DNA of 64,000 nucleotides, from the NCBI RefSeq assembly GCF_030269485.1, contig NZ_BSTL01000007.1:323204-387203 (forward strand). The letters run 5' to 3'. The position numbers and the translations under genes were made by a program. The notes beneath the pieces were generated by a model. It was not told where the DNA came from, did no database searches, and was given only the letters and a program-made list of their open reading frames with translations. Below, in pieces: positions 13,252-50,381 of this stretch. How positions within the stretch are numbered: position 1 is the stretch's first letter; each line of letters starts with the position of its first letter. The stretch is from Actinoplanes sp. NBRC 103695. Its GTDB lineage: Bacteria > Actinomycetota > Actinomycetes > Mycobacteriales > Micromonosporaceae.

Positions 13252-13464
13252 GCTGGACGCGCTGGATGCGCTGGATGCGCTGGATGCGCTGGATGCGCTG
13301 GATGCGCTGGATGCGCTGGATGCGCTGGATGCGCTGGATGCGCTGGATGCGCTGGATGCGCTGGATGCGCTGGATGCGCTGGACGCGCTGGACGCGCTGG
13401 ACGCGTCGGTCTTGCGCTGGACGCGTCGGTCTTGCGCTGGACGCGTCGGTCTTGCGCTGGACGC
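13252..13464. repeat. Tandem array: 17 copies of a 9-bp unit, then 3 copies of a 20-bp unit
   Basis: The unit GCTGGAYGC repeats 17 times without interruption (13252-13404). The first and last three copies carry C at the variable base and the 13 inner copies carry T. A 20-bp derived unit (GTCGGTCTTGCGCTGGACGC) then repeats three times (13405-13464). It starts 14 bp after the mycosin stop. Frames through it would encode Leu-Asp-Ala or Pro-Ala-His repeats, but none has a ribosome site, so it is taken as non-coding. Confidence 0.9.
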
Positions 13465-14355
13465 GGCGCTTTGCGCTGGACGTCCTGCTCCCGGGCTGGA
13501 CGCGCCGCTCGGGCGGGACGGCGCCGCTCCGGCAGGCGCGCGTCGCTCTCGCGGCGCGCGGCTTCCACTAGCGCGCTGGGCGCGCTGGTCTCGCGCTGGG
13601 CGCGCCGTTCTCGGGCGCGAGGCGCCGCTCCGGCAGGCGCGCGTCGCTCCCGCGGCCGCGCGCGACTTTCGCTATGGGCGCGACTTTCGCTATGGGCGCG
13701 GCTTCCGTAGCGGGCTCGGCGACCCCGCGTGGCGCTGCCTACTCGCGCTGGGTGCCGCCACCCGCGGCCGAGGTGGACAGGCAAGCGCACCAGGCCGGCG
13801 GAACTGCCCGCTCGCGCTGGTCCCGCCGCTCGCGGTTGTCAGTGGTAGCTCAGCGAGGGGCGGTTCCGCGCGGTGGTGGCTCCGCTCGGCGGTGGTAGTG
13901 CAGCGCGGTATCGAATCCGTGGATGGCGCTCTTCCCTACCACCGGATGTTGTGGTGGTAGCGAGGCGCGGTATCAGGCCCGTGGATGGCGTTCTGGGCTA
14001 CCGCTCGCTGCGGCGGTGGTAGGCGGTAGTGGTAGCGGGGCGCGGCGGGGGCTGTCCGGGGGAGTGGTGTGGCCGGGACCGGGCGGGACAACCCGGATGG
14101 TGGGGCGCGGAGGTCTCCCCGCGCCTGGCCGGCCTCGATGACGGGACTCTTCGGTCACACGTAGTCATCGTTTCTGTCTTTGGCTTTCGGGCGAGGGCGA
14201 GGGCGAGGCGAGGGCGAGGGCGACGGAAGGCGGCGGTTGATGTTTGCGGGAGGGCGACGGAAGACGGCGGTTGATGTTCGGCGCGAGGGCGAGGGCGACG
14301 GAAGGTGGCGGTTGATCTTCGGGGGAGGGGGAGCGGAGGCGGGTAGGTTCGGGCG
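13465..14355. repeat. Gene-free repeat field downstream of the mycosin
   Basis: About 890 bp hold no credible gene. 13465-13800 is GC-rich with scattered GCTGGGCGC/GGACGC remnants of the upstream array. Two near-copies of a 62-bp unit start at 13891 and 13953; both contain GTGGTAG, a GCGCGGTATC core and a GTGGATGGCG core. From 14218 to about 14328 three units beginning GGGCGACGGAAG (at 14218, 14252 and 14293) each end with GCGGTTGAT. Long frames here on both strands lack ribosome sites and have arginine-rich shadow composition. Confidence 0.65.
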
Positions 14356-36628: not shown

Positions 36629-37501
36629 GTGAGTGAGCGTTGGCAGCGTCCAGGTGGGTCGTGGGGATCAGGCACGGTCACCGCGCCGCCCCCGCCGCCG
36701 GACCTGCCCCCGCCGCCCGCCCCGCCGAAACCCGGTGGCGACGGCCCGGCCAGGCGCAAGCGTCAGATGTTCGTCTTCGGTGGTGTCGCCGGCGCGATCC
36801 TCGCCACCGGTCTGATCATCATCCTGGTCGTGGTGTTCTCCGGCAGCGGCGACCCGTTCGGCAGCGGCAAGGCCGACGCGCCCTCGGACGTCCGCCCGCC
36901 GCTGGCCCAGATGTGCCCGGCGCCGACCGTGGCACCCAGCGATCCGCCGCCCGCCGGTCCGAGCGCCGCGCCACCCGCCCCGACCGGGCAGCGGACGGTC
37001 GACGAGGAGGCCGGGATCTCGTACAACGCGTACGGCTCGCCCTGGGTCGCCTGGAACGAGGTGTGGCGGGCCGGGACGCTGGAGGTGCCGTACAAGGTCG
37101 GGCAGCACTTCGTGACCGAGGAGTACTCGGCCGGGCAGTACCACGCCTCGATCCTGTCGGCGGCGGTCCCGGCCGCGGACAACGACGCGGTCACCTTCGA
37201 CATGGAGTGTGTGGGCCGGCAGGTGGCGGCGGACGTCCGCGCCGAGTACTACCCGCAGCCGAACACGATGGAGCCGATCCGTGACGGGCTGACCAGGCTG
37301 GGTGGCCGTCCGGCCTATCTGGCCGAGTTCCGGCTGCACTTCTCGGCGGCCGGGCTGCAGGCCAAGGACGAGCTCTCCGCGGTGGCCGTGATCGATGTCG
37401 GCAAGCCGACCGCCGCGGTGCTCTACATCTCGATCCCGGGTACGCACAAGCAGTTCGACTACGTCATAGACGACGTGCTGTCCTCCGTACGCCCGCTCTG
37501 A
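36629..37501 (+). CDS. Membrane-anchored protein with proline-rich N-terminus
   Basis: The 290-residue protein starts at GTG 36629. Residues 1-45 are Pro/Gly-rich and cytoplasmic, one membrane helix follows (about 47-70, MFVFGGVAGAILATGLIIIL), then a Pro/Ala-rich linker to about 120. A globular external domain (about 122-290) carries two cysteines and ends at VIDDVLSSVRPL. The plan resembles many actinobacterial membrane proteins with a C-terminal lipoprotein-like domain. It overlaps the convergent Rrf2 gene by 43 bp. Confidence 0.75.
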   Translation: MSERWQRPGGSWGSGTVTAPPPPPDLPPPPAPPKPGGDGPARRKRQMFVFGGVAGAILATGLIIILVVVFSGSGDPFGSGKADAPSDVRPPLAQMCPAPTVAPSDPPPAGPSAAPPAPTGQRTVDEEAGISYNAYGSPWVAWNEVWRAGTLEVPYKVGQHFVTEEYSAGQYHASILSAAVPAADNDAVTFDMECVGRQVAADVRAEYYPQPNTMEPIRDGLTRLGGRPAYLAEFRLHFSAAGLQAKDELSAVAVIDVGKPTAAVLYISIPGTHKQFDYVIDDVLSSVRPL

Positions 37502-37929
37502 AGCGAAGTGTTCCCGCTCCGCAGCGTCGTGTTCCCGCTCTGTAGCTCGGCCAGCGTCCGGTGGTCGACCACGCCCTCGATCGCCTCCTCGACGGCGACC
37601 CAGACGTCCCGCAGGCCGATGGCCGCGCCGTGGTAGGTGGTGGTGGCCGTGGGCAGCCCGCGGACCGTGGTCAGGGCGCCGCCGACCGCGCGCACCACGT
37701 CGCCGATGGTGATCTCGTCGGCCGGGCGGGCCAGCTGGTATCCGCCGTCGACGCCGCGGTGGCTGTGCAGCAGCCCGGCCCGGCGCAGGTCGAGCAGGAT
37801 GCCCTGCAGGAAGCTGAGTGGGATGTCCTGGGCGGCGGCCAGCGTCGCAGCCTTCACCAGGTGGGGACCGTCGGCGGCCACCGAGAGCATGGCTCGGACG
37901 GCATAGTCGGTGCGTGCCGAGACGTACAC
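37459..37929 (-). CDS. Rrf2-family transcription regulator
   Basis: From GTG 37929 the protein has 156 residues. The Rrf2 winged helix is clear: VSARTDYAVRAMLSVAA, DIPLSFLQGILLDLRRAGLL and HRGVDGGYQLARP. No cysteines are present, so it does not bind a Fe-S cluster and may sense another signal. It lies 40 bp after the last gene of the SIR2/caspase cassette on the same strand. A partial dyad CCTACC/GGATAGG at 37939-37955, just before the start, could be its own operator. Confidence 0.88.
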   Translation of the reverse strand: MYVSARTDYAVRAMLSVAADGPHLVKAATLAAAQDIPLSFLQGILLDLRRAGLLHSHRGVDGGYQLARPADEITIGDVVRAVGGALTTVRGLPTATTTYHGAAIGLRDVWVAVEEAIEGVVDHRTLAELQSGNTTLRSGNTSLQSGRTEDSTSSMT

Positions 37930-37969
37930 GACAGTAAACCTACCATGCGGATAGGAATAATGGGTGGCC

Positions 37970-38359
37970 TCAAGAGGCGGCGGTGAATGCCTCCGCGGCC
38001 TCGTGCAGCGCCTTGACCGTCGCCGGGTCGCCCGTCGACTCGCGCAGCGCGCGCGCCGGCACGAGCCCGCCCACACCCACCTCACGCAGCCAGGAGGCGG
38101 CCTGCGAGGTGCGGTTGACGGTGTGGAAGATGCTGATCAGCTCGACCGCGGCGGACAGCCGCCGGGCGGCCGTGTCGCTGCTCAGCACCGGGCCGGCGGA
38201 CCACGACCGGAACTCGTCGATGGTGTTGGCGCCGGCCAGGTAGGCGGTCAGGTCCTCGCCCAGCACCTCGTCGCAGACCTCGATGTTCGCCGAGACCCCG
38301 CTCTCCCGAAGGAAAGCCGAGCCTTCCCGAGGAGCGGCGCGTAACGCGGTCGCAGTCAT
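37970..38359 (-). CDS. MbcA/ParS/Xre antitoxin-like small protein, last gene of the cassette
   Basis: ATG 38359 lies 5 bp after the SIR2 stop, giving 129 residues. The sequence is all-helical. It has an N-terminal part with VCDEVLGEDLTAYLAGANTI and a C-terminal part, AARRLSAAVELISIFHTV then ASWLREVGVGGLVPARALRE, that resembles the toxin-binding domain of MbcA/ParS/Xre antitoxins (DUF2384). Those normally guard RES-type NAD-degrading toxins; no RES gene is here, but a SIR2-like putative NADase is directly upstream. The link is inference. It could also be an unrelated helical adaptor. Confidence 0.6.
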   Translation of the reverse strand: MTATALRAAPREGSAFLRESGVSANIEVCDEVLGEDLTAYLAGANTIDEFRSWSAGPVLSSDTAARRLSAAVELISIFHTVNRTSQAASWLREVGVGGLVPARALRESTGDPATVKALHEAAEAFTAAS

Positions 38360-38364
38360 GCCCA

Positions 38365-40488
38365 CTACGTTACTTCTCCGCGACCATCGGGGCGAGCGCC
38401 CAGATAAAGGTCGTTCACGTGGTCGGCCAGCACGTCCAGCGCCGGCCGGCCCATCTCGATCGCCGCCACGAACGCCGCCCACGAGTCCAGCGGGAAGTCG
38501 TCCACCCGCGGCATCGTCGCCGACGTCAGATAGACCGGCAGCAGCATCGCGTTGTGGAAGAGCCACGGCACGTAGCTGCCGTCCGAGTCCCAGCCGCGCA
38601 GCTCGCGCGTGCGATAGAGGTGTTCCCGCAGTTCCTCGCGGGTGGACCAGCTCAGCATGTGCGCGTCGTGCTTCAGATTCTTGATGTACGGGTTGTAGAG
38701 GTGCCCCGGCCCGAACCCGAACGTCTGCCGCCACGACGCCCAGAGCAGCGCCTCGTCCCGGCCGCCCAGCGTCAGCACGTCCCCGGTCTGGCTCTCCAGC
38801 AGCATGCTGTTCAGGTACGGCCACAGGGTCAGCGGGATCAGCAGCCGGCTCGCGTCGGTGCGCAACATCGCCTGCACGATCGGCCAGGCGTTGGCCTCCA
38901 GCGCATCCCAGTCGGCCAGGTGCGGCACCGCCTTCACCGCGGCGAGCATGCTGTACAGCGACGGGTTCCGGTCGCTGTAGAAGATCCGCCGGGCCACGCC
39001 CCACGGGTCGGTCGGCCGGAGCAGGGACTCCGGCGACGGCGTACGCGGCAGGCGCTGGCTCTGTTCGACGAACTCGCCCAGGCTGACGAACCGCACCTGG
39101 GCGCCGTGCCCGGTCCGGCCGATCCAGTGCTGCAGGTCGGCGCGGAAGCTGTCGCCGGACTCGGCGGTCCGGGTGCCCACGTCGTCCAGCACCATCCGCA
39201 CCTCGACGCCGAGCCGGGCCAGCGCCCCGGCCACGAACGCCTGCACCATGTGGATCACCGACGCCCGCGGCCGCAGCCGCACCGGCCACAGCACCCGGGC
39301 CGGCCGCCGCGTGCCCTGCTGCTGGTTCACCCAGCCGAACCGGCGTTCCAGCTGCAGCAGCAGCCCGGGAACGTCGGCCGGCGGCGTCGAGTCGGGCTGG
39401 GTGACCAGCTCCCGTTCCCACTTGTGGTGCCGGGCCACGTGCCGCCGCCCGGTCTCGCGGGCCGGCACGATCACCCCGGCCCGGTCGGCCAGCGCCGGGA
39501 ACAGCCGCTCGGTGTCGATGCCCGGGAAACACTCCACCTCGGTGCCGGTCAGCTGCTTGAGCCGCTCGCCGGTCCGCAGCGCCTGGTCCGGGTCGGCGTC
39601 GAAGAGGCCCCACAGCACCCGCAGCCGGCGGCGCCGGGCGACCAGCGCGATCGCCGAGGCCAGCGTGCCCGCCCAGTCGGTGGTGCCGAGCACGCACACG
39701 GTGTCGCCGCGGATCAGCGCGGCGGTGCCGTCGACCAGGTCGGTGGCGGCGGTGATCCGGGCCGGGTCGTGCAGCAGCCGGGGACCGCGGACGTGCAGCG
39801 TCGGCCGCCAGAAGCCGTGCGTGTGGAAGACCCGGATCGCGCCGTCCGCGCCGGCCGACGCGCCGTACCCGCCGCTCAGGTCCAGCGGCAGGCTCACCGC
39901 CAGACCACCGGCGTGCCGGACGGCGATCTCGATCAGCGGGTCGAAGTTGGTGGTGATCACCCGGTTGTCGAAGGCGACCGCGGTCTGCGCGAGCAGGTGG
40001 CCGAGCGCCTCCACGCCGCGCGGGAGCTGCCAGCCGTACCGCTCGTTCTCCAGCGCCTCGCCGACGCCGCGCTCCACCCGCTGCCCCAGACCGCGGGTGG
40101 CCAGCGGCGACTCCATCGGGTCCTCCGGCGCGTACGCCTTCAGCACGGCCTGCTGCGCGATCACGTCGAAGGCGCCGGCCGAGACCCAGTCGGAGAAGAC
40201 CCTCCGGTACGCGCGGTAGACGTCGATCGCCGGTACCGGACCGAGCCGCGCCCGAGCCTGCGCCAGCGCGCGTTGCAACGATCCCTCGTCGTTGCGGCCG
40301 GCCGCGTACTGGTCGGCGATCTCCAGCAGGCCCGGCACCCGCGGCACCACGCTCGCCGACACGCCCGAGCCGACCATCAGCGTGATCTGCTCCGAACCGG
40401 AAAGGCTCGCCGACAGCCGGCCGAGCAGCATCGCCTCGCCCGCGCTGAGCTCCTCCTCGGGACCGTCTCCGCCGGACCAGTCAGTCAT
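38365..40488 (-). CDS. SIR2-like (putative NADase effector) protein with large C-terminal domain
   Basis: From ATG 40488 the protein has 707 residues. Residues about 35-310 are SIR2-like: LMVGSGVSAS (38-46), VITTNFDPLIEIA (177-189, with N181 and D183), FHTHGFW (221-227, H224) and VCVLGTTDWAGTLASAIA. This pattern matches SIR2 domains of bacterial defence proteins that cleave NAD. The C-terminal 350 residues are helical and tryptophan-rich (for example SLYSMLAAVKAVPHLADWDA), with no recognised family. It sits between the caspase gene (5-bp gap) and the MbcA-like gene (5-bp gap). Confidence 0.75.
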   Translation of the reverse strand: MTDWSGGDGPEEELSAGEAMLLGRLSASLSGSEQITLMVGSGVSASVVPRVPGLLEIADQYAAGRNDEGSLQRALAQARARLGPVPAIDVYRAYRRVFSDWVSAGAFDVIAQQAVLKAYAPEDPMESPLATRGLGQRVERGVGEALENERYGWQLPRGVEALGHLLAQTAVAFDNRVITTNFDPLIEIAVRHAGGLAVSLPLDLSGGYGASAGADGAIRVFHTHGFWRPTLHVRGPRLLHDPARITAATDLVDGTAALIRGDTVCVLGTTDWAGTLASAIALVARRRRLRVLWGLFDADPDQALRTGERLKQLTGTEVECFPGIDTERLFPALADRAGVIVPARETGRRHVARHHKWERELVTQPDSTPPADVPGLLLQLERRFGWVNQQQGTRRPARVLWPVRLRPRASVIHMVQAFVAGALARLGVEVRMVLDDVGTRTAESGDSFRADLQHWIGRTGHGAQVRFVSLGEFVEQSQRLPRTPSPESLLRPTDPWGVARRIFYSDRNPSLYSMLAAVKAVPHLADWDALEANAWPIVQAMLRTDASRLLIPLTLWPYLNSMLLESQTGDVLTLGGRDEALLWASWRQTFGFGPGHLYNPYIKNLKHDAHMLSWSTREELREHLYRTRELRGWDSDGSYVPWLFHNAMLLPVYLTSATMPRVDDFPLDSWAAFVAAIEMGRPALDVLADHVNDLYLGARPDGRGEVT

Positions 40489-40493
40489 GGCCG

Positions 40494-41783
40494 TCACCGG
40501 CCGGCCTGCAGCGACTGCCACAGTTCGCCGGGGCGCGCCGTGAACACCTGCCGGGTCGGCCGCCGGCTGACGATCAGCTCGCCGCGCTCGATGTAGTCCT
40601 CCAGCTCGCCGGGCCGCCAGCCGAGATAGCCGACGAAGATGCGCACGGTGTCGACGGTGTCCTCCAACTCGCCCAGCGCCTCGGTCAGCGCCATCGTGCC
40701 CAGCCGCTCCTCGTCGTCCCGCTCGCGTAAGGGGGTGAAGCGCAACGGGTGCGGCGCGCCCGACCGCAACATGGTCAGCACGATGTAGCCGTCCCGGGCC
40801 ACCGGGCCGCCGTGGAAGAGCAGCGTGGGGGTGCTGATCAGGGAGCGCCAGGCGGCCGGGAAGTCAGCCGGGATCTCCCGGTCCGGGCGGGTCAGGCAGA
40901 CGCCCAGCGCCCCGGTCGCGTTGTGCCGCAGCACCAGGATGGCCCGCTGGCCCAGCTCGTCGTCGATGAACCAGGGCGCCGCGTAGAGCACCGTCCCGGC
41001 CAGGTCACGCCGGGGGAGGCGGGCGTTGTGCACCAGCGCGATCGCGGCGCCGAAATCGCGGGCGCGCATCTCCGGCCGCTCGAAGCCGCGGTGCAGCATC
41101 GCGTCGCGTACCGAACGCCAGATGGTCTCCACGGTCAGAGCCGGCGGCGTCGCCTCGCGCGGGCCGGGCTGATAACCCTCGCGCAGGAACCGCAACAGCT
41201 CGCCGGTGAACGCGGTGTGGATCTCGCCGTGCGGAGCACGCGCGCGCCGGTTGGCCGGCGCCGAGACCAGCAGGCAGGTGCCGTCGGTGGCGGCCTTGTC
41301 GGCGACCGCGTCGGTGCCGGTGAAGCCGGTGCCCAGTTCGGCGTCGGCGCGCCCGGAGTAGCAGCAGTCCAGGATCACCAGCCGGCGCCGTGCCCGGGTG
41401 CCGGCCACCGCCCAGCGGATCCAGTCGTACGGCAGGCCCTCCTCGTGCGGGGCGTCCGGGTCGCAGGCGGGCAGCGCCAGGATGAGTTTCTCGTCGTCGG
41501 CCGGGTCGACCAGCCCGTGCCCGGAGAAGTAGACCAGCAGCAGGCCGTCGCGTTCGGTCGCCGCGGCCGCCTCGCGCACCACCCGGCTGACCTCGCCCGG
41601 GCTGGCCGGGTCGAGCAGCACGTGGCAGTTCTCCGGCGGAATGCCCCAGAAGTCGGCGTCGGCCAGCAGGTCGCCGAAGCCGGCCACGTTGTTGCGGACC
41701 GCGGGCAGCTCCGGCAGGTGCTGATAGCCGGACACGCCGATCAGGACGACCTGGGACAGCGCCGGGTTGGCGACCTCACTCAT
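40494..41783 (-). CDS. Caspase-like (C14) protease fused to an AlgH/YqgE domain
   Basis: The 429-residue protein has a caspase-like domain at about 10-235. The catalytic pair is H89 in VYFSGHG and a cysteine in LDCCYSG (C140/C141). Residues about 257-425 are an AlgH/YqgE (UPF0301) domain: LAGTVLYAAPWF, GALGVCLTRP (291-300), FHGGPV (323-328) and IFVGYLGWRPGELEDYI (382-398). Such caspase-like proteases occur in bacterial conflict systems with EACC1-type partners. The start ATG is 3 bp after the EACC1-like stop. I know of no standard family with this domain pair. Confidence 0.85.
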   Translation of the reverse strand: MSEVANPALSQVVLIGVSGYQHLPELPAVRNNVAGFGDLLADADFWGIPPENCHVLLDPASPGEVSRVVREAAAATERDGLLLVYFSGHGLVDPADDEKLILALPACDPDAPHEEGLPYDWIRWAVAGTRARRRLVILDCCYSGRADAELGTGFTGTDAVADKAATDGTCLLVSAPANRRARAPHGEIHTAFTGELLRFLREGYQPGPREATPPALTVETIWRSVRDAMLHRGFERPEMRARDFGAAIALVHNARLPRRDLAGTVLYAAPWFIDDELGQRAILVLRHNATGALGVCLTRPDREIPADFPAAWRSLISTPTLLFHGGPVARDGYIVLTMLRSGAPHPLRFTPLRERDDEERLGTMALTEALGELEDTVDTVRIFVGYLGWRPGELEDYIERGELIVSRRPTRQVFTARPGELWQSLQAGR

Positions 41784-41786
41784 CGG

Positions 41787-42131
41787 CTATGCCCGCTCCA
41801 GCTCCCGCAGCGCGGTCTCCAGAGCCTCCGGCGTGGACGCTTCGATCCGGGTGGTGCCACCGTCCGGGTGAACGTGGGTCACCACCAACTCCGGCGGGCG
41901 CGGCCGGGACTCGCGCCACTGCTTGACGGCGAGCACCAGCTGGGCCGCCGAGAACCCGGTGCCGATGACCAGGGTCAGCACGTCGATCAGGGGGCCGAGT
42001 TCCTCCGGGTCGGGGTTCTCGGCGCGGGCCAGCCGCCCGTCCGAACGCGCGCCGGGCTCGTCGCGCAGCCATCGGAACAGCGACTCGGCATCCGCCTCGG
42101 ACTCACACGTCAGTTGCAGCTGAACGGCCAT
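41787..42131 (-). CDS. EACC1-like effector-associated component
   Basis: ATG 42131 gives a 114-residue protein and is the first gene of the cassette. It opens with a beta strand (AVQLQLTCESEADAESLFRW) and LRDEPGARSDGRL, followed by a hydrophobic membrane-like helix, LGPLIDVLTLVIGTGFSAAQL, then a charged strand-rich end with VHPDGGTTRIEASTPEALE. This order (short beta domain, RWLRD motif, hydrophobic helix, -W- and beta end) matches EACC1, the constant component of caspase/trypsin-linked conflict systems described by the Aravind group. The match is from memory of the family, not a search. Confidence 0.75.
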   Translation of the reverse strand: MAVQLQLTCESEADAESLFRWLRDEPGARSDGRLARAENPDPEELGPLIDVLTLVIGTGFSAAQLVLAVKQWRESRPRPPELVVTHVHPDGGTTRIEASTPEALETALRELERA

Positions 42132-42187
42132 CGGGAGATTGAACCCTTTCGTTGCCCGGACCTTGCGAAAGTTAGCACCGCGCTTCC

Positions 42188-42242
42188 AGGTCGTGTCTCG
42201 TGGACCTCGCCTCGCACGTGGCCGACCCACGAGACACGACCT
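42188..42242. promoter_or_regulatory. Perfect 16-bp inverted repeat between divergent units
   Basis: AGGTCGTGTCTCGTGG (42188-42203) pairs perfectly with 42227-42242 across a 23-bp spacer. It lies upstream of both the EACC1-led cassette (minus strand) and the M16 protease pair (plus strand). It could be an operator, a roadblock hairpin or a remnant of insertion. Confidence 0.75.
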
Positions 42243-42283
42243 GCCCTGGCATGCACCGCCGGCCGCCGGGCTAGATTCATGGA

Positions 42284-43591
42284 GTGGTGCGCAAAATGAA
42301 GATTCCCGCGACCAAGTATCCGGTCGAACGACTCACGCTCGACAACGGGCTGCGGGTGGTTCTGTCACCCGATCGCAGTGCCCCGGTGGTCGGCGTTGCC
42401 GTGGTCTACGACGTCGGCATCCGGTCCGAGCCGGAGGGGCGCACCGGGTTCGCGCACCTCTTCGAGCATCTGATGTTCCAGGGATCGGGCAACATCGACA
42501 AGCTGGAGCACGCCCGGCACGTGCAGGGGGCGGGCGGCAGTTTCAACGGATCCACCCATCTGGACTACACCGACTACTACGAGGTGCTCCCGGCCGGTGG
42601 CCTGGAACGCGCGCTCTTCCTCGAGGCCGACCGGATGCGCGGTCCGCGGCTCACCGAGGAGAACCTGCGCAACCAGGTCGACGTGGTCAAGGAAGAGATC
42701 CGGGTCAACGTCCTCAACCGGCCGTACGGCGGATTTCCCTGGCTGAAACTGCCGCCGGTGATGTTCTCGACGTTCCCCAACGAGCACGACGGGTACGGCT
42801 CCTTCGCCGACCTGGAGAGCGCGACGCTGGCCGACGCCGAGGAGTTCTTCGAGCGCTACTACGCCTGCGGCAACGCCGTGCTCGCGGTGGCCGGCGACTT
42901 CGACCTGGCCAAGACCACCGAGCTGATCAAGCGGCACTTCGGCGACGTGCCCGCCCGGCCGGCCCCGGCGCGCCCGGACTTCGACGAGCCCGACCTCACC
43001 GCCGAGCGCCGCGAGTCGTACACCGACCGGCTCGCCCCGCTGCCCGCGGTGGCCAGCGGCTGGCGGGTGCCGGACCCGATCGGCGACTTCACCGGCTACC
43101 TGCCCTACACGGTGCTCGCCGAGGTGCTCACCGACGGCGACGCCTCGCGCCTGGTCGACCGCCTGGTGCAGCGCGACCGCACCGTCACCAGCATCGGCGG
43201 CTACCTCGGCTTCATGGGCGACGAGTACGCGGTCCGCAACCCGACCGCCCTGCTGCTGCAGGCGCATCTGCCACCCGGCGGCGACGCGGAGAAGGTGCTG
43301 CGGACCGTCGACGAGGAACTGGACCGGCTGGCCACCGACGGACTGCGGCCGGGCGAGCTCGCCCGTACCCAAGCCCGGATCGCGACCCACCACCTGCGTG
43401 AGATCGACGCGGTCCTCGGCCGGGCGCAGCCCATGGCCGTGCTGGAACAGCAGCGTGGCCGGCCCGAGCTGATCAACGAGGTGCCGAAACTGATCGGTGA
43501 GGTGACCGAGGAGCAGGTCGTGGCCGCCGCCGCCACCCTGCGCCCGGAGCGTCGCGCCACCGTCGAGGTCAAGCCGGGAGCCGGAGCATGA
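42284..43591 (+). CDS. M16-family zinc metallopeptidase (active subunit)
   Basis: The 435-residue protein has the inverted zinc motif HLFEH in GFAHLFEHLMFQGS near residue 60, with the downstream glutamate in NQVDVVKEEIRVNV. It is a pitrilysin/processing-peptidase-like enzyme that degrades peptides. The start at GTG 42284 is one option; ATG 42296 has GGAG 11 bp upstream and is equally likely. TAGATT at 42272 could be a -10 box. It overlaps the next gene by 4 bp (ATGA). Confidence 0.92.
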   Translation: MVRKMKIPATKYPVERLTLDNGLRVVLSPDRSAPVVGVAVVYDVGIRSEPEGRTGFAHLFEHLMFQGSGNIDKLEHARHVQGAGGSFNGSTHLDYTDYYEVLPAGGLERALFLEADRMRGPRLTEENLRNQVDVVKEEIRVNVLNRPYGGFPWLKLPPVMFSTFPNEHDGYGSFADLESATLADAEEFFERYYACGNAVLAVAGDFDLAKTTELIKRHFGDVPARPAPARPDFDEPDLTAERRESYTDRLAPLPAVASGWRVPDPIGDFTGYLPYTVLAEVLTDGDASRLVDRLVQRDRTVTSIGGYLGFMGDEYAVRNPTALLLQAHLPPGGDAEKVLRTVDEELDRLATDGLRPGELARTQARIATHHLREIDAVLGRAQPMAVLEQQRGRPELINEVPKLIGEVTEEQVVAAAATLRPERRATVEVKPGAGA

Positions 43592-46735: not shown

Positions 46736-46803
46736 TGCACTACTAGGCGATATGACCCTCTGTAGTGCACCATGTACAAACCGTTAACATATGGAAGCAC
46801 TAC
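46736..46803 (+). promoter_or_regulatory. Repeated TGCACTAC/GTAGTGCA sites before the surface-protein gene
   Basis: TGCACTAC (46736-46743) and GTAGTGCA (46762-46769) form a perfect 8-bp inverted repeat around AT-richer DNA. A third half-site GCACTAC lies at 46797-46803, directly before the GGGGGAAGC ribosome site. This looks like a regulator binding region controlling the gene at 46818. Confidence 0.6.
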
Positions 46804-46817
46804 GGGGGAAGCAGTAA

Positions 46818-49800
46818 ATGGGCGTGACAGAATTCTGTCGCCGCCGCCTGAGCGAGTGGCGTCGGTGGGCGGTGGAGGCCCGAAACTGGGGCTCCCTGAC
46901 AAGTTCGGCGTGGGACAGCTGGCAAGGGCGCATCCGCGGCCGTCGGCGGGCACGGAGGCTCAGCACCGGGGGCGCGCTGGCACTCGTGTTCAGCATCGTC
47001 GCCCTGTCGGTCGGCGTGATGCCGGCCTTCGCCGAGCCGCCGTCCACGACCGTCGCGCTCACCGCCTCGCCCGACCCGTCGGTGACCGGGGAGACAGTGA
47101 CTCTCTGCGCCACCGTCACGGCACCGGCACCAGAGGCCCGAGCACCGGGCCTGCCCGACACCCCCACGGGGACGGTCACCTTCACCGGCCCGGGCGGGCT
47201 GAACTCGACAGTGCCGCTCGACGGGGCAGGCGAGGGCTGCGCGACCACCACCGTGCTGACCACGGGCACGGTCACCGCGACGTACAGCGGTGACGGAACA
47301 TACGACCCGGCCACCGACTCGGAGGCGGTGACGGTCGATCCTGCGGCTACGAGTACGGCGGTGACCGCGTCGCCGGATCCGTCGGTGTCGGGGGAGTCGG
47401 TTGAGGTGTGTGCCGTGGTGACGGTGGAGGCGCCTGGTTCGGGTACGCCTACGGGGACGGTGACTTTCACGGGTCCGGGTGGGCTGAATCAGACGGTTGC
47501 TTTGGATGGGACTGGTGAGGGTTGTCTGACGACGGCGACTTTGGCGACGGGGACGGTGACGGGCACGTATAACGGTGACTCCGGGAGGGCTGGGTCGACT
47601 GGAACGGTCAGTGTCACGGTCGATCCTGCGGCTACGACCACGACGGTGGTGTCGGCGCCCGAGCCTTCGGTGACGGGTGAGTCGGTCGAGGTGTGCGCCA
47701 CTGTCGCGGCGACGCCGCCTGGTTCGGGTACGCCGACCGGGTCGGTGACTTTCACGGGTCCGGGTGGGCTGAATCAGACGGTCGCTTTGGATGGGACTGG
47801 TGAGGGTTGTCTGACGACGGCGACTCTGGTGACGGGGACGGTCACCGGCACGTATAACGGTGGCGGCGGGATGGCCGGGTCGACCGGTACGGCGACTGTC
47901 ACGGTCAATCCTGCGGCTACGAGCACGGCGGTGACCGCGTCGCCGGATCCGTCGGTGTCGGGGGAGCCGGTCGAGGTGTGTGCCGTGGTGACGGTCGAAG
48001 CGCCTGGTTCGGGAACGCCGACCGGGACGGTGACTCTCACGGGTCCGGGTGGGCTGAATCAGACGGTCGCTTTGGATGGGACTGGTGAGGGTTGTCTGAC
48101 GACGGCGACTTTGGCGACCGGGACGGTCACCGGCACGTACAACGGTGACTCCGGGATGGCCGGATCCGTCGGGACCGTGAGCGTCACCGTGAATCCGGCC
48201 GCCACGACCACGACGGTCGTGTCGGCGCCCGAGCCTTCGGTGACCGGCCAGTCGGTCGAGGTGTGCGCCACTGTCGCGGCGACGCCGCCTGGTTCGGGTA
48301 CGCCGACCGGGTCGGTGACTTTCACGGGTCCGGGTGGGCTGAATCAGACGGTCGCTTTGGATGGGACTGGTGAGGGTTGTCTGACGACGGCGACTTTGGC
48401 GACCGGGACGGTCACCGGCACGTATAACGGTGGCGGCGGGATGGCCGGGTCGACCGGTACGGCGACTGTCACGGTCAATCCTGCGGCTACGAGCACGGCG
48501 GTGACCGCGTCGCCGGATCCGTCGGTGTCGGGGGAGCCGGTCGAGGTGTGTGCCGTGGTGACGGTGGAAGCGCCTGGTTCGGGAACGCCGACCGGGACGG
48601 TGACTCTCACGGGTCCGGGTGGGCTGAATCAGACGGTTGCTCTGGATGGGACTGGTGAGGGTTGTCTGACGACGGCGACTTTGGCGACCGGGACGGTGAC
48701 GGGCACGTATAACGGTGACTCCGGGAGGGCCGGGTCGACTGGAACGGTCAGTGTCACGGTCGATCCTGCGGCTACGACCACGACGGTGGTGTCGGCGCCC
48801 GAGCCTTCGGTGACGGGTGAGTCGGTCGAGGTGTGCGCCACTGTCGCGACTACCCCGCCTGGTTCGGGTACGCCGACCGGGTCGGTGACCTTCACGGGTC
48901 CGGGCGGGCTGAACCAGACCGTCGCTCTGGACGGGGCCGGCGAGGCCTGCATCACGACCACCAGCCTGGCGACGGGAACCGTCACGGCCACCTATGGCGG
49001 CGACTCGGTGGTGACCGGGTCGACAGGTACAGCGAGTGTGACGGTCAATCCCGCCGACACCAGCACGGCGGTCACGGCGACGCCGGATCCGTCGGTGACC
49101 AGTGAATCGGTCGAGATCTGCACCGCCGTCACCGTGACGGCCCCCGGTACAGGCATGCCGACGGGCACGGTGACTTTCACCGGCCCTGGTGGGCTGAACC
49201 AGACCGTCGCTCTGGACGGGGCCGGCGAGGCCTGCATCACGACCACCAGCCTGGCGACGGGAACCGTCACGGCCACCTACAACGGTGACTCCGGGATGGC
49301 CGGATCGACGGGCACGGCGGCCGTCACGGTAAACCCGGCGCCGACCACGACGACCGTGCTGACCGCCGTCCGTACCGGCGCCTCGGTCGAGCTGTGTGCC
49401 ACCGTGACCTTCGATGCCGCCCCGGCCTCGCTCGCGAACTCCGCCGTCGCCCTGATCGCCGACAAGGCGGGCCGGGACGGCGCGGTCTCGATGGGTGGCT
49501 CCGGCGCGCCGACCGGGACCGTCACCTTCACAGGGCTCGGCGGGCTCAACCAGACGGCCGTCCTGGACTCCGACGGGAAGGCCTGCGTCACGGTGACCGA
49601 TGTCGCCGGGGGCACGGCCACCGCCACGTACTCCGGCGACGCCGGCATTGCCGGTTCGACGGACACGGAGACCGTGCCGCCGAGCGTTCCCAGCGCGCCG
49701 GGCAACGTCACGGCGGTCGGTGGTGTCTCGTCGGTCGTCGTGAGCTGGCAGCCGCCGTCCACGGGCGCGGCGGTGACCGGTTACACCGCTACCGCCGGCC

Positions 49801-50381
49801 CCGGCCCCGCCGTCTGCACCACGACCGGCGAGACGAGCTGTCTGCTGGGCGGGACCGCGGGAACCACCTACACGGTGACCGTTGTCGCCCATTCGGCCGT
49901 GGGTGACTCACCGGCCAGCGAGCCGTCGAACGAGGTCACCGTCGTGGCCCCGACGCCGCCGTCCGAACCGCCCACGACCGACCTGACGCTGACCACCACC
50001 GACGGGGACATCACCGTCGCGGAGCCCGGTCAGCGCCTGGTGTTCATCGGCACCGGCTTCGCGCCGTTCTCCACGGTCGTGGTGACGCTCTACTCGGAGC
50101 CGGTCCTGCTCGGCAGCTTCACCACCAACGCGATCGGCTCTTTCGAGGCGCCGGTCACGCTGCCGGAGAACTTGTCGGCGGGGAAGCACACCGTCGCGGC
50201 GCAAGGGATCGCGCCTGACGGCAGCCCGCGGGCGATGGTGCTCACGGTCTCCGTCGGTGGCGGGGCCGGCCTGCCGGTCACCGGTCCGTCGGTCAGCGTG
50301 CTGCTGCTCAGCGGCATCCTGCTCGCGATGGGCGGCACCGGCCTGGTCGCCGTGGGCAGGCCGCGGCGACGCGTGCGCTGA
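46818..50381 (+). CDS. Sortase-anchored Ig-repeat surface protein
   Basis: The 1187-residue protein has a long signal peptide (cut expected near PAFAE, about residue 73), about nine bacterial Ig-like (BIg3-type) domains, one fibronectin III domain (about 955-1050) and a final Ig-like module. The C-terminus is a sorting signal: LPVTG, hydrophobic helix, RPRRRVR. Each Ig domain has two cysteines (one in VCAxV, one in GEGCLTT or GEACITT) that likely form a disulfide. ATG 46818 has GGGGGAAGC upstream. It probably sits on the cell wall as a stalk or adhesin. No sortase gene is in view. Confidence 0.88.
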   Translation: MGVTEFCRRRLSEWRRWAVEARNWGSLTSSAWDSWQGRIRGRRRARRLSTGGALALVFSIVALSVGVMPAFAEPPSTTVALTASPDPSVTGETVTLCATVTAPAPEARAPGLPDTPTGTVTFTGPGGLNSTVPLDGAGEGCATTTVLTTGTVTATYSGDGTYDPATDSEAVTVDPAATSTAVTASPDPSVSGESVEVCAVVTVEAPGSGTPTGTVTFTGPGGLNQTVALDGTGEGCLTTATLATGTVTGTYNGDSGRAGSTGTVSVTVDPAATTTTVVSAPEPSVTGESVEVCATVAATPPGSGTPTGSVTFTGPGGLNQTVALDGTGEGCLTTATLVTGTVTGTYNGGGGMAGSTGTATVTVNPAATSTAVTASPDPSVSGEPVEVCAVVTVEAPGSGTPTGTVTLTGPGGLNQTVALDGTGEGCLTTATLATGTVTGTYNGDSGMAGSVGTVSVTVNPAATTTTVVSAPEPSVTGQSVEVCATVAATPPGSGTPTGSVTFTGPGGLNQTVALDGTGEGCLTTATLATGTVTGTYNGGGGMAGSTGTATVTVNPAATSTAVTASPDPSVSGEPVEVCAVVTVEAPGSGTPTGTVTLTGPGGLNQTVALDGTGEGCLTTATLATGTVTGTYNGDSGRAGSTGTVSVTVDPAATTTTVVSAPEPSVTGESVEVCATVATTPPGSGTPTGSVTFTGPGGLNQTVALDGAGEACITTTSLATGTVTATYGGDSVVTGSTGTASVTVNPADTSTAVTATPDPSVTSESVEICTAVTVTAPGTGMPTGTVTFTGPGGLNQTVALDGAGEACITTTSLATGTVTATYNGDSGMAGSTGTAAVTVNPAPTTTTVLTAVRTGASVELCATVTFDAAPASLANSAVALIADKAGRDGAVSMGGSGAPTGTVTFTGLGGLNQTAVLDSDGKACVTVTDVAGGTATATYSGDAGIAGSTDTETVPPSVPSAPGNVTAVGGVSSVVVSWQPPSTGAAVTGYTATAGPGPAVCTTTGETSCLLGGTAGTTYTVTVVAHSAVGDSPASEPSNEVTVVAPTPPSEPPTTDLTLTTTDGDITVAEPGQRLVFIGTGFAPFSTVVVTLYSEPVLLGSFTTNAIGSFEAPVTLPENLSAGKHTVAAQGIAPDGSPRAMVLTVSVGGGAGLPVTGPSVSVLLLSGILLAMGGTGLVAVGRPRRRVR
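47343..49337 (+). repeat. Seven tandem 285-bp units encoding Ig-like domains
   Basis: Unit boundaries fall at 47343, 47628, 47913, 48198, 48483, 48768 and 49053, each exactly 285 bp (95 codons). Two types alternate: one beginning STAVTASPDPSVSGE, the other TTTVVSAPEPSVTG. So the higher-order unit is 570 bp. Units two to six are nearly identical at DNA level, showing recent expansion. Confidence 0.9.

Follow-up and report, generated by a model that had tools for sequence, protein, structure and literature searches.

A compact EACC1–caspase cassette with SIR2-like and MbcA-like genes in Micromonosporaceae, a candidate protease-gated NADase unit

Results

A four-gene cassette in Actinoplanes

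We analysed a 64,000-nucleotide stretch of the Actinoplanes sp. NBRC 103695 genome (contig NZ_BSTL01000007.1, positions 323,204 to 387,203; hereafter the window), focusing on a compact cassette of four minus-strand genes at positions 37970-42131. The host genome comprises 10.8 Mb in 180 contigs, and the window lies on contig 7 (G000:C7). In gene order, the cassette encodes an EACC1 protein of 114 amino acids (41787-42131), a caspase–AlgH fusion of 429 amino acids (40494-41783), a 707-amino-acid SIR2-like protein with a large C-terminal domain (CTD; the gene spans 38365-40488) and a small MbcA/Xre/ParS-like protein of 129 amino acids that is a candidate antitoxin (37970-38359), with gaps of only 3, 5 and 5 bp between the genes. 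An earlier reading of the window made from its letters without database searches (the sequence-only reading) had described these coordinates, strands and gaps, and the gene positions agree. Its assignments of an EACC1-like protein, a caspase-like protease with an AlgH/YqgE domain, a SIR2-like protein and, by eye, an MbcA/ParS-like protein were likewise borne out by the profile searches reported below, the last two at the level of the protein family. The G+C content of the cassette region (0.73) falls inside the range of the window (0.67-0.76).

The first protein matches PF19953 well above threshold (E = 1.1e-23; 83.7 bits, cut-off 23.6), shows by eye a hydrophobic stretch with small residues at about residues 48-69 and is predicted to be a membrane-associated constant component. 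Its gene is encoded 5' of the caspase gene, as in known EACC1-caspase systems. The protease in turn matches NF047832, the model for 'caspase, EACC1-associated type' (216.8 bits, cut-off 140), as well as PF00656 (6.4e-9; 36.3 bits, cut-off 21.4). Its caspase domain covers approximately residues 10-230 (41094-41756, minus strand) and is followed by a C-terminally fused AlgH/YqgE-like domain at about residues 257-424 (40512-41015, minus strand; PF02622 at 4.5e-17), whose solved sequence relatives include UPF0301-type proteins such as 2gs5 (9.1e-10; family profile 5.9e-25). Each of the 23 proteins in the family alignment has both domains (E ≤ 0.001); L014, whose caspase is cut, and L020, which has none, are not in that alignment. 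H89, D139 and C141 are invariant across these 23 caspases, window protein included; the catalytic pair, H89 and C141, had been named as a target for mutation in the sequence-only reading. D139, within a DCC motif, stands two residues before the catalytic cysteine, at the metacaspase S1-pocket position, where an aspartate would favour cleavage after Arg or Lys. Elsewhere in the host genome, four further EACC1 matches (L108-L111) were observed, of which two lie ahead of further caspase genes and a third forms a fusion with a caspase; around the fourth, the 8 kb examined contain no called caspase.

The third protein consists of a SIR2-like domain at about residues 33-340 (bounds set by eye), a basic linker at residues 346-365 (39394-39453, minus strand) and the CTD at about residues 363-707 (38365-39402, minus strand). 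PF13289 was matched by all 30 aligned members of the SIR2 family at E ≤ 1 (best 4.1e-10), and a family profile compared with the Protein Data Bank (PDB) retrieved human FAM118B (2.4e-6) and the bacterial Sir2 protein 8in8 (0.004), which we take to come from a defence system that depletes nicotinamide adenine dinucleotide (NAD). G40, G42, N181 and D183, which include the glycine motif and the catalytic asparagine, are invariant in the 30 proteins, and H224 is nearly so, with one exception by eye (P0061); N181 and H224 had been the second pair named earlier. The domain call is SIR2-like, and we infer an NADase function. The defence-system models for SIR2 in PADLOC-DB matched the protein weakly at best (14.8 bits, E = 0.0025 over 20 residues), and the PADLOC caspase model matched the window protease at 0.0012. 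The linker, which often reads RHRVRHxxWE, is a candidate processing site; the protein's most basic stretch of 12 residues falls within it in 16 of 30 members when R, K and H are counted and in 11 of 30 when only R and K are. The CTD is conserved along its whole length in the 30 aligned proteins; it has no Pfam match common to the family, and its profile found nothing in the PDB better than 0.53, which we take as chance, so that no known fold was recognised at the sequence level. A motif in it may hint at a fold like that of class I tRNA synthetases.

For the small protein, the antitoxin-type PF09722 domain (Xre/MbcA/ParS toxin-binding) is present by family evidence and not by the window protein alone. 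PF09722 was matched by 6 of 23 family members at E ≤ 0.1, with the L019 protein above the cut-off (7.9e-8, 32.6 bits) and the L023 protein below it (19.5 bits). A profile of the 23 proteins matched 79 residues of Mycobacterium MbcA (6fkg; 1.3e-5) and, more weakly, the Xre antitoxin 6gw6 (0.17); the small protein matched no helix-turn-helix (HTH) family. RES toxins, the partners neutralised by MbcA/Xre/ParS proteins, are mostly reported as NADases in the parts of PMC12204516 consulted here. No match to the RES family (PF08808) was found anywhere in the host genome at E ≤ 1e-3, in a search whose control was positive in 2 of 14 genomes; this speaks against a RES toxin as hidden partner and leaves the MbcA-like protein without its usual NAD-degrading partner.

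The cassette is kept as a unit

We sampled 300 Micromonosporaceae genomes, scoring three candidates per genome for the SIR2 protein, up to five for caspase–AlgH and up to six for the lineage-A radical S-adenosylmethionine (SAM) gene described below. Forty-nine genomes had a match to the SIR2 profile; nine partial, weak ones (5.6e-9 to 4.6e-4) were dropped, leaving 40 genomes in which the SIR2 protein was counted at E below 1e-50. Named relatives of the window SIR2 protein belong to Actinoplanes, Couchioplanes, Dactylosporangium and other Micromonosporaceae. Caspase–AlgH lies beside SIR2 in 38 of the 40, the small gene follows SIR2 in 37 and EACC1 is present in 33; caspase–AlgH, SIR2 and the small gene stand together in 36, and all four genes share one order and strand in 32. 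The preserved order rules out chance juxtaposition of unrelated genes and supports the earlier proposal that the four form one unit, and the neighbourhood survey excludes that they never co-occur elsewhere. Contig ends cut two loci (G043 and G089), and G089 has a caspase–AlgH match on another contig. The only genome of the 40 truly without caspase–AlgH is G184, which also lacks EACC1 and the small gene; there (L076:3378-7698) the SIR2-CTD portion sits behind a TCAD9-like region (1e-5, below cut-off) in a fusion of 1090 amino acids that is followed by a radical SAM gene of lineage B. EACC1 is missing from G024, G044 and G081.

A scan of GTDB genomes with the SIR2 profile gave 24 loci, a set that overlaps the 40 genomes and is not additive to them. 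Here the caspase adjoins SIR2 in 23 of 24, the exception being L020, which a contig end truncates; EACC1 is present in 19 (18 by BLAST, L022 by Pfam) and the small gene in 23 (all except L018). A simple custom gene caller placed both the caspase and the SIR2 start in 22 loci, and in 10 of these the two frames share 4 bp, a sign of coupled translation of these two genes. Pairwise distances of the parts are correlated (Mantel r 0.91-0.98, reached by 0 of 2,000 permutations for any pair), a result that, lacking a housekeeping control, speaks for joint inheritance and not for interaction, and for which common descent alone could suffice. Full-length caspase–AlgH occurs in at least 36 genomes, which among the matches listed all fall within the 40 with the SIR2 protein. 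Beyond the family, a class sample of 394 genomes (two candidates per genome) yielded only partial SIR2-CTD matches, in two other genomes, and the CTD profile, run against 346 genomes sampled from the phylum and 298 from the order, found only family members.

Comparison of the flanks indicates that the cassette is a discrete insert. An M16-peptidase-like gene (42284-43591, plus strand) and an Rrf2-like regulator gene (37459-37890, minus strand), both assigned by eye, border the insertion site and lie outside the cassette. Across 28 genomes of the genus, with distances worked out by hand, the two are direct neighbours in 22 (284-813 bp between matches) and separated by 4.5-5.8 kb in three (the host genome, G146 and G167); the remaining three are uninformative, as G220 and G228 have no Rrf2 match at 1e-40 and the match in G090 lies far off. 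Since the flanks adjoin in 22 of 28 genomes, the cassette is a unit gained or lost whole. Three of the genomes with an empty site (G152, G184 and G196) have the SIR2 gene elsewhere. The M16-Rrf2 site is common to the window and 5 of the 24 loci (L002-L006), and the other loci lie in other surroundings.

The CTD is associated with radical SAM enzymes

The conserved CTD and the radical SAM enzymes associated with it go beyond the sequence-only reading, which had missed both. Two enzyme lineages recur. In 20 of the 40 loci, a lineage-A gene (PF04055) is encoded on the strand opposite to the SIR2 gene and no more than 2 kb away from it. At E ≤ 1e-30, lineage A was found in 21 of the 300 genomes, all among the 40 with the SIR2 protein (hypergeometric 1.3e-21 by genome and 4.0e-6 by genus, values overstated by linkage and relatedness). 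Twenty of these 21 copies adjoin the cassette; the sole unlinked copy is that of the host genome itself (C4:33738-34853; L034:9733-10878), which stands beside a glnE-like gene (by eye) with no second cassette in the 20 kb examined. Of 14 other copies compared with it, the one from Actinoplanes sp. TBRC 11911 is the most similar (66%), and copies at the window's own site are 56-58% identical to it. The host copy could be either a partner acting in trans or a relic.

Lineage B adjoins 3 of the 40 loci. In G044 and G081 it follows the cassette, and in G184 the SIR2-CTD fusion, each time in the same direction, bringing relatives with an adjacent radical SAM gene of either lineage to 23 of 40. Its members are 43-86% identical to one another and about 23-42% identical to lineage A over partial stretches. 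Outside the family, a Frankiaceae metagenome-assembled genome (L104, 5966-8109) encodes a stand-alone CTD protein with weak HTH matches, followed by a lineage-B gene with a 4-bp overlap; no SIR2 or protease gene was noted beside it. The search for stand-alone CTDs returned two proteins, one of them the query, and the link between CTD and radical SAM outside the family consists of this one locus. In all, three architectures bring the CTD together with a radical SAM enzyme, and one of the three is represented by that lone locus outside the family.

Discussion

Relation to known systems

The EACC1-caspase pair is already known. According to the main text of PMC7159879, such systems were predicted by comparative genomics in 671 organisms, multicellular bacteria, and have 'up to 50' C-terminal domains; Kaur et al. 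2020 propose there that EACC1 senses at the membrane and that the caspase is triggered to release effectors by proteolysis. AlgH may be one of these domains. We found no experimental test of an EACC1-caspase system in the literature examined. Like the two-gene system of that text, the window cassette places EACC1 5' of an EACC1-type caspase to which a further domain is fused C-terminally; it differs from that system in its steady AlgH domain and in the added SIR2-CTD and MbcA-like genes. The terms SIR2, sirtuin, AlgH, DUF179 and ParS were not found in that main text, as distinct from its source data and figures, and in the parts of PMC8195603 consulted SIR2 is named once, as an effector of another system. 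At the title and abstract level of the literature searched, we found no description of EACC1 with SIR2 and MbcA. Features not met in the literature examined are the constant fusion to AlgH, the presence of genes for SIR2-CTD and an MbcA-like protein, the CTD itself and its link to radical SAM.

Other known systems share single parts. As in RES-Xre, MbcTA and ParST, so far as the consulted parts of PMC12204516 describe them, the small protein is MbcA-related by profile and its partner probably acts on NAD, but the cassette has SIR2 in place of RES and no HTH family was matched. As in DSR2 and Thoeris ThsA, anti-phage SIR2 NADases considered here from partial accounts, the cassette keeps a SIR2 domain with the Asn/His pair, whereas its CTD is another one, it has protease and antitoxin-like companions, and its PADLOC matches are only weak. 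The same comparison applies to SIR2-APAZ/pAgo. In Craspase, which combines CRISPR with the TPR-CHAT protease Csx29, a caspase-like protease reportedly cuts a partner and so releases its function; the cassette, in contrast, has no CRISPR parts, and its protease is of the C14 rather than the CHAT type. Finally, the FtsH ternary conflict systems, as treated in the main text of PMC7159879, also place a radical SAM enzyme beside a conflict cassette and are proposed to use it to modify a peptide effector, whereas the radical SAM genes here are tied to the SIR2 CTD and fall into two lineages.

A tentative model

Together, the caspase-release proposal of Kaur et al. and the apparent exchange of RES for SIR2 suggest a protease-gated NADase. 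With no RES match in the host genome and the small gene after SIR2 in 37 of 40 genomes, SIR2 is the obvious replacement for RES, and the simplest reading is that the small protein restrains SIR2. We tentatively put forward, at somewhat less than even confidence, that the cassette is a variant of the EACC1-caspase systems with fixed composition in which proteolysis would free a SIR2 NADase from an MbcA-like inhibitor. The sequences show the genes, domains, retained catalytic residues, gene order, discrete insertion and radical SAM association, and each biochemical step of the model is our inference. EACC1 at the membrane would sense or relay a trigger and switch on the caspase–AlgH protease. 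The SIR2 protein would be an NAD-consuming effector kept inactive by the adjacent MbcA-like protein, much as RES toxins are by MbcA, Xre and ParS. Once active, the protease, which probably cleaves behind basic residues, would remove the inhibitor, cut the SIR2-CTD linker or do both; NAD would fall, and the cell would stop growing or die. The radical SAM enzyme probably modifies one of the cassette proteins, perhaps via the CTD. The sequence-only reading had imagined a two-effector suicide system (proteolysis plus NAD loss) with a built-in restraint. The restraint has gained support from the MbcA-like profile and from the lack of a RES match in the host genome. The two-effector suicide system stays conjectural, and the caspase may be the trigger instead of a second effector.

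If the model holds, a family of antitoxins has been transferred between two NADase folds, and a death switch has a radical SAM enzyme among its working parts. As the unit combines a protease with a measurable candidate activity (NAD loss) and a candidate inhibitor, it would make caspase targets directly testable. A bolder version, which we consider unlikely, would be a protease-gated NADase toxin-antitoxin unit in which caspase–AlgH destroys an MbcA-like antitoxin moved from RES to a SIR2 NADase, and in which the response is licensed when a dedicated radical SAM enzyme modifies the CTD. The CTD would then represent a new radical-SAM-linked domain class whose three forms (HTH-CTD, TCAD9-like-SIR2-CTD and caspase-cassette SIR2-CTD) all stand next to one and the same radical SAM lineage.

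Several observations weigh against the proposed protease-gated NADase. G256 lacks EACC1 and the small gene yet keeps caspase and SIR2, and G053 lacks the small gene only; in total, EACC1 was not found in 5 of the 38 loci free of contig ends and the small gene in 3 of 40, indicating that both are dispensable in a strict sense, a difficulty for the view of the small protein as an essential antitoxin. On its own, the window SIR2 protein scores 19.5 bits against PF13289, below the cut-off of 24.5, and the window small protein matches no Pfam family. The basic linker is missing in four Dactylosporangium-type sequences (P0076-P0079), which argues against a universal cut at the linker, and the model gives the AlgH domain no role. 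In 16 of the 40 genomes there was no radical SAM gene next to the cassette and no lineage-A match either (the genome-wide search covering lineage A only), which makes the enzyme an accessory. Finally, tblastn with the SIR2 protein at 1e-5 found no match in 50,697 phage and 72,556 plasmid records, which speaks against a phage- or plasmid-borne cassette.

Under a different division of labour, rather unlikely in our view, the small protein would be an adaptor or autoregulator, the caspase would act independently on cellular or phage proteins, and the SIR2 protein would be activated directly by a trigger binding its CTD, in the manner of DSR-type defence sirtuins. The three loci that keep SIR2 without the small gene fit this arrangement, as do the size and conservation of the CTD, which could make it a sensor, and the existence of a stand-alone relative with weak HTH matches away from SIR2 and protease. 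It sits poorly with the constancy of the small gene after SIR2 (37 of 40) and of caspase–AlgH beside it (38 of 40, the others being the cut locus G089 and G184, which truly lacks it).

The narrow range of the cassette raises another prospect, one we hold to be unlikely: that it serves filamentous actinomycetes as a developmental or stress switch for death or dormancy, responding to internal signals rather than to phage. Across the sampled genomes, full-length SIR2-CTD was confined to a single family, no copy was found on phages or plasmids, and composition is steady where the main text of PMC7159879 reports varied C-termini for EACC1 systems. However, its occurrence is scattered (40 of 300 genomes) and its gain or loss at the M16-Rrf2 site is clean, which resembles an accessory conflict cassette more than a developmental core. 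That the SIR2 domain is a deacylase or ADP-ribosyltransferase, with caspase–AlgH and radical SAM forming a protein-modification pathway, is very improbable: radical SAM genes do recur beside the cassette (lineage A in 20 of 40, lineage B in 3 of 40), but the closest solved relatives by profile are FAM118B and 8in8, the latter presumably from an NAD-depleting system as noted above.

Other features of the window and of related loci

A scan of 37400-42500 found no sigma-70 type promoter. It gave two terminator-like sites where 0.8 were expected, of which the one at 37939-37955 lies just 3' of the small gene; the result is uninformative. No transfer RNA gene was found in the 64-kb window. Among the 24 loci, a CYTH gene (class IV adenylate cyclase-like) follows the cassette in seven (L018-L021 and L023-L025; Pfam on L018 only), and a pair encoding an HD_4 protein and a protein of an unknown family follows it in six (L009-L013 and L016, at about 10.5-12.2 kb; Pfam on L009 only). 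Elsewhere in the window, a frame with tandem MRW repeats at 13266-13571 is probably no gene, and very long frames run on both strands at 46800-50381, the plus-strand one encoding, by eye, an Ig-like repeat protein.

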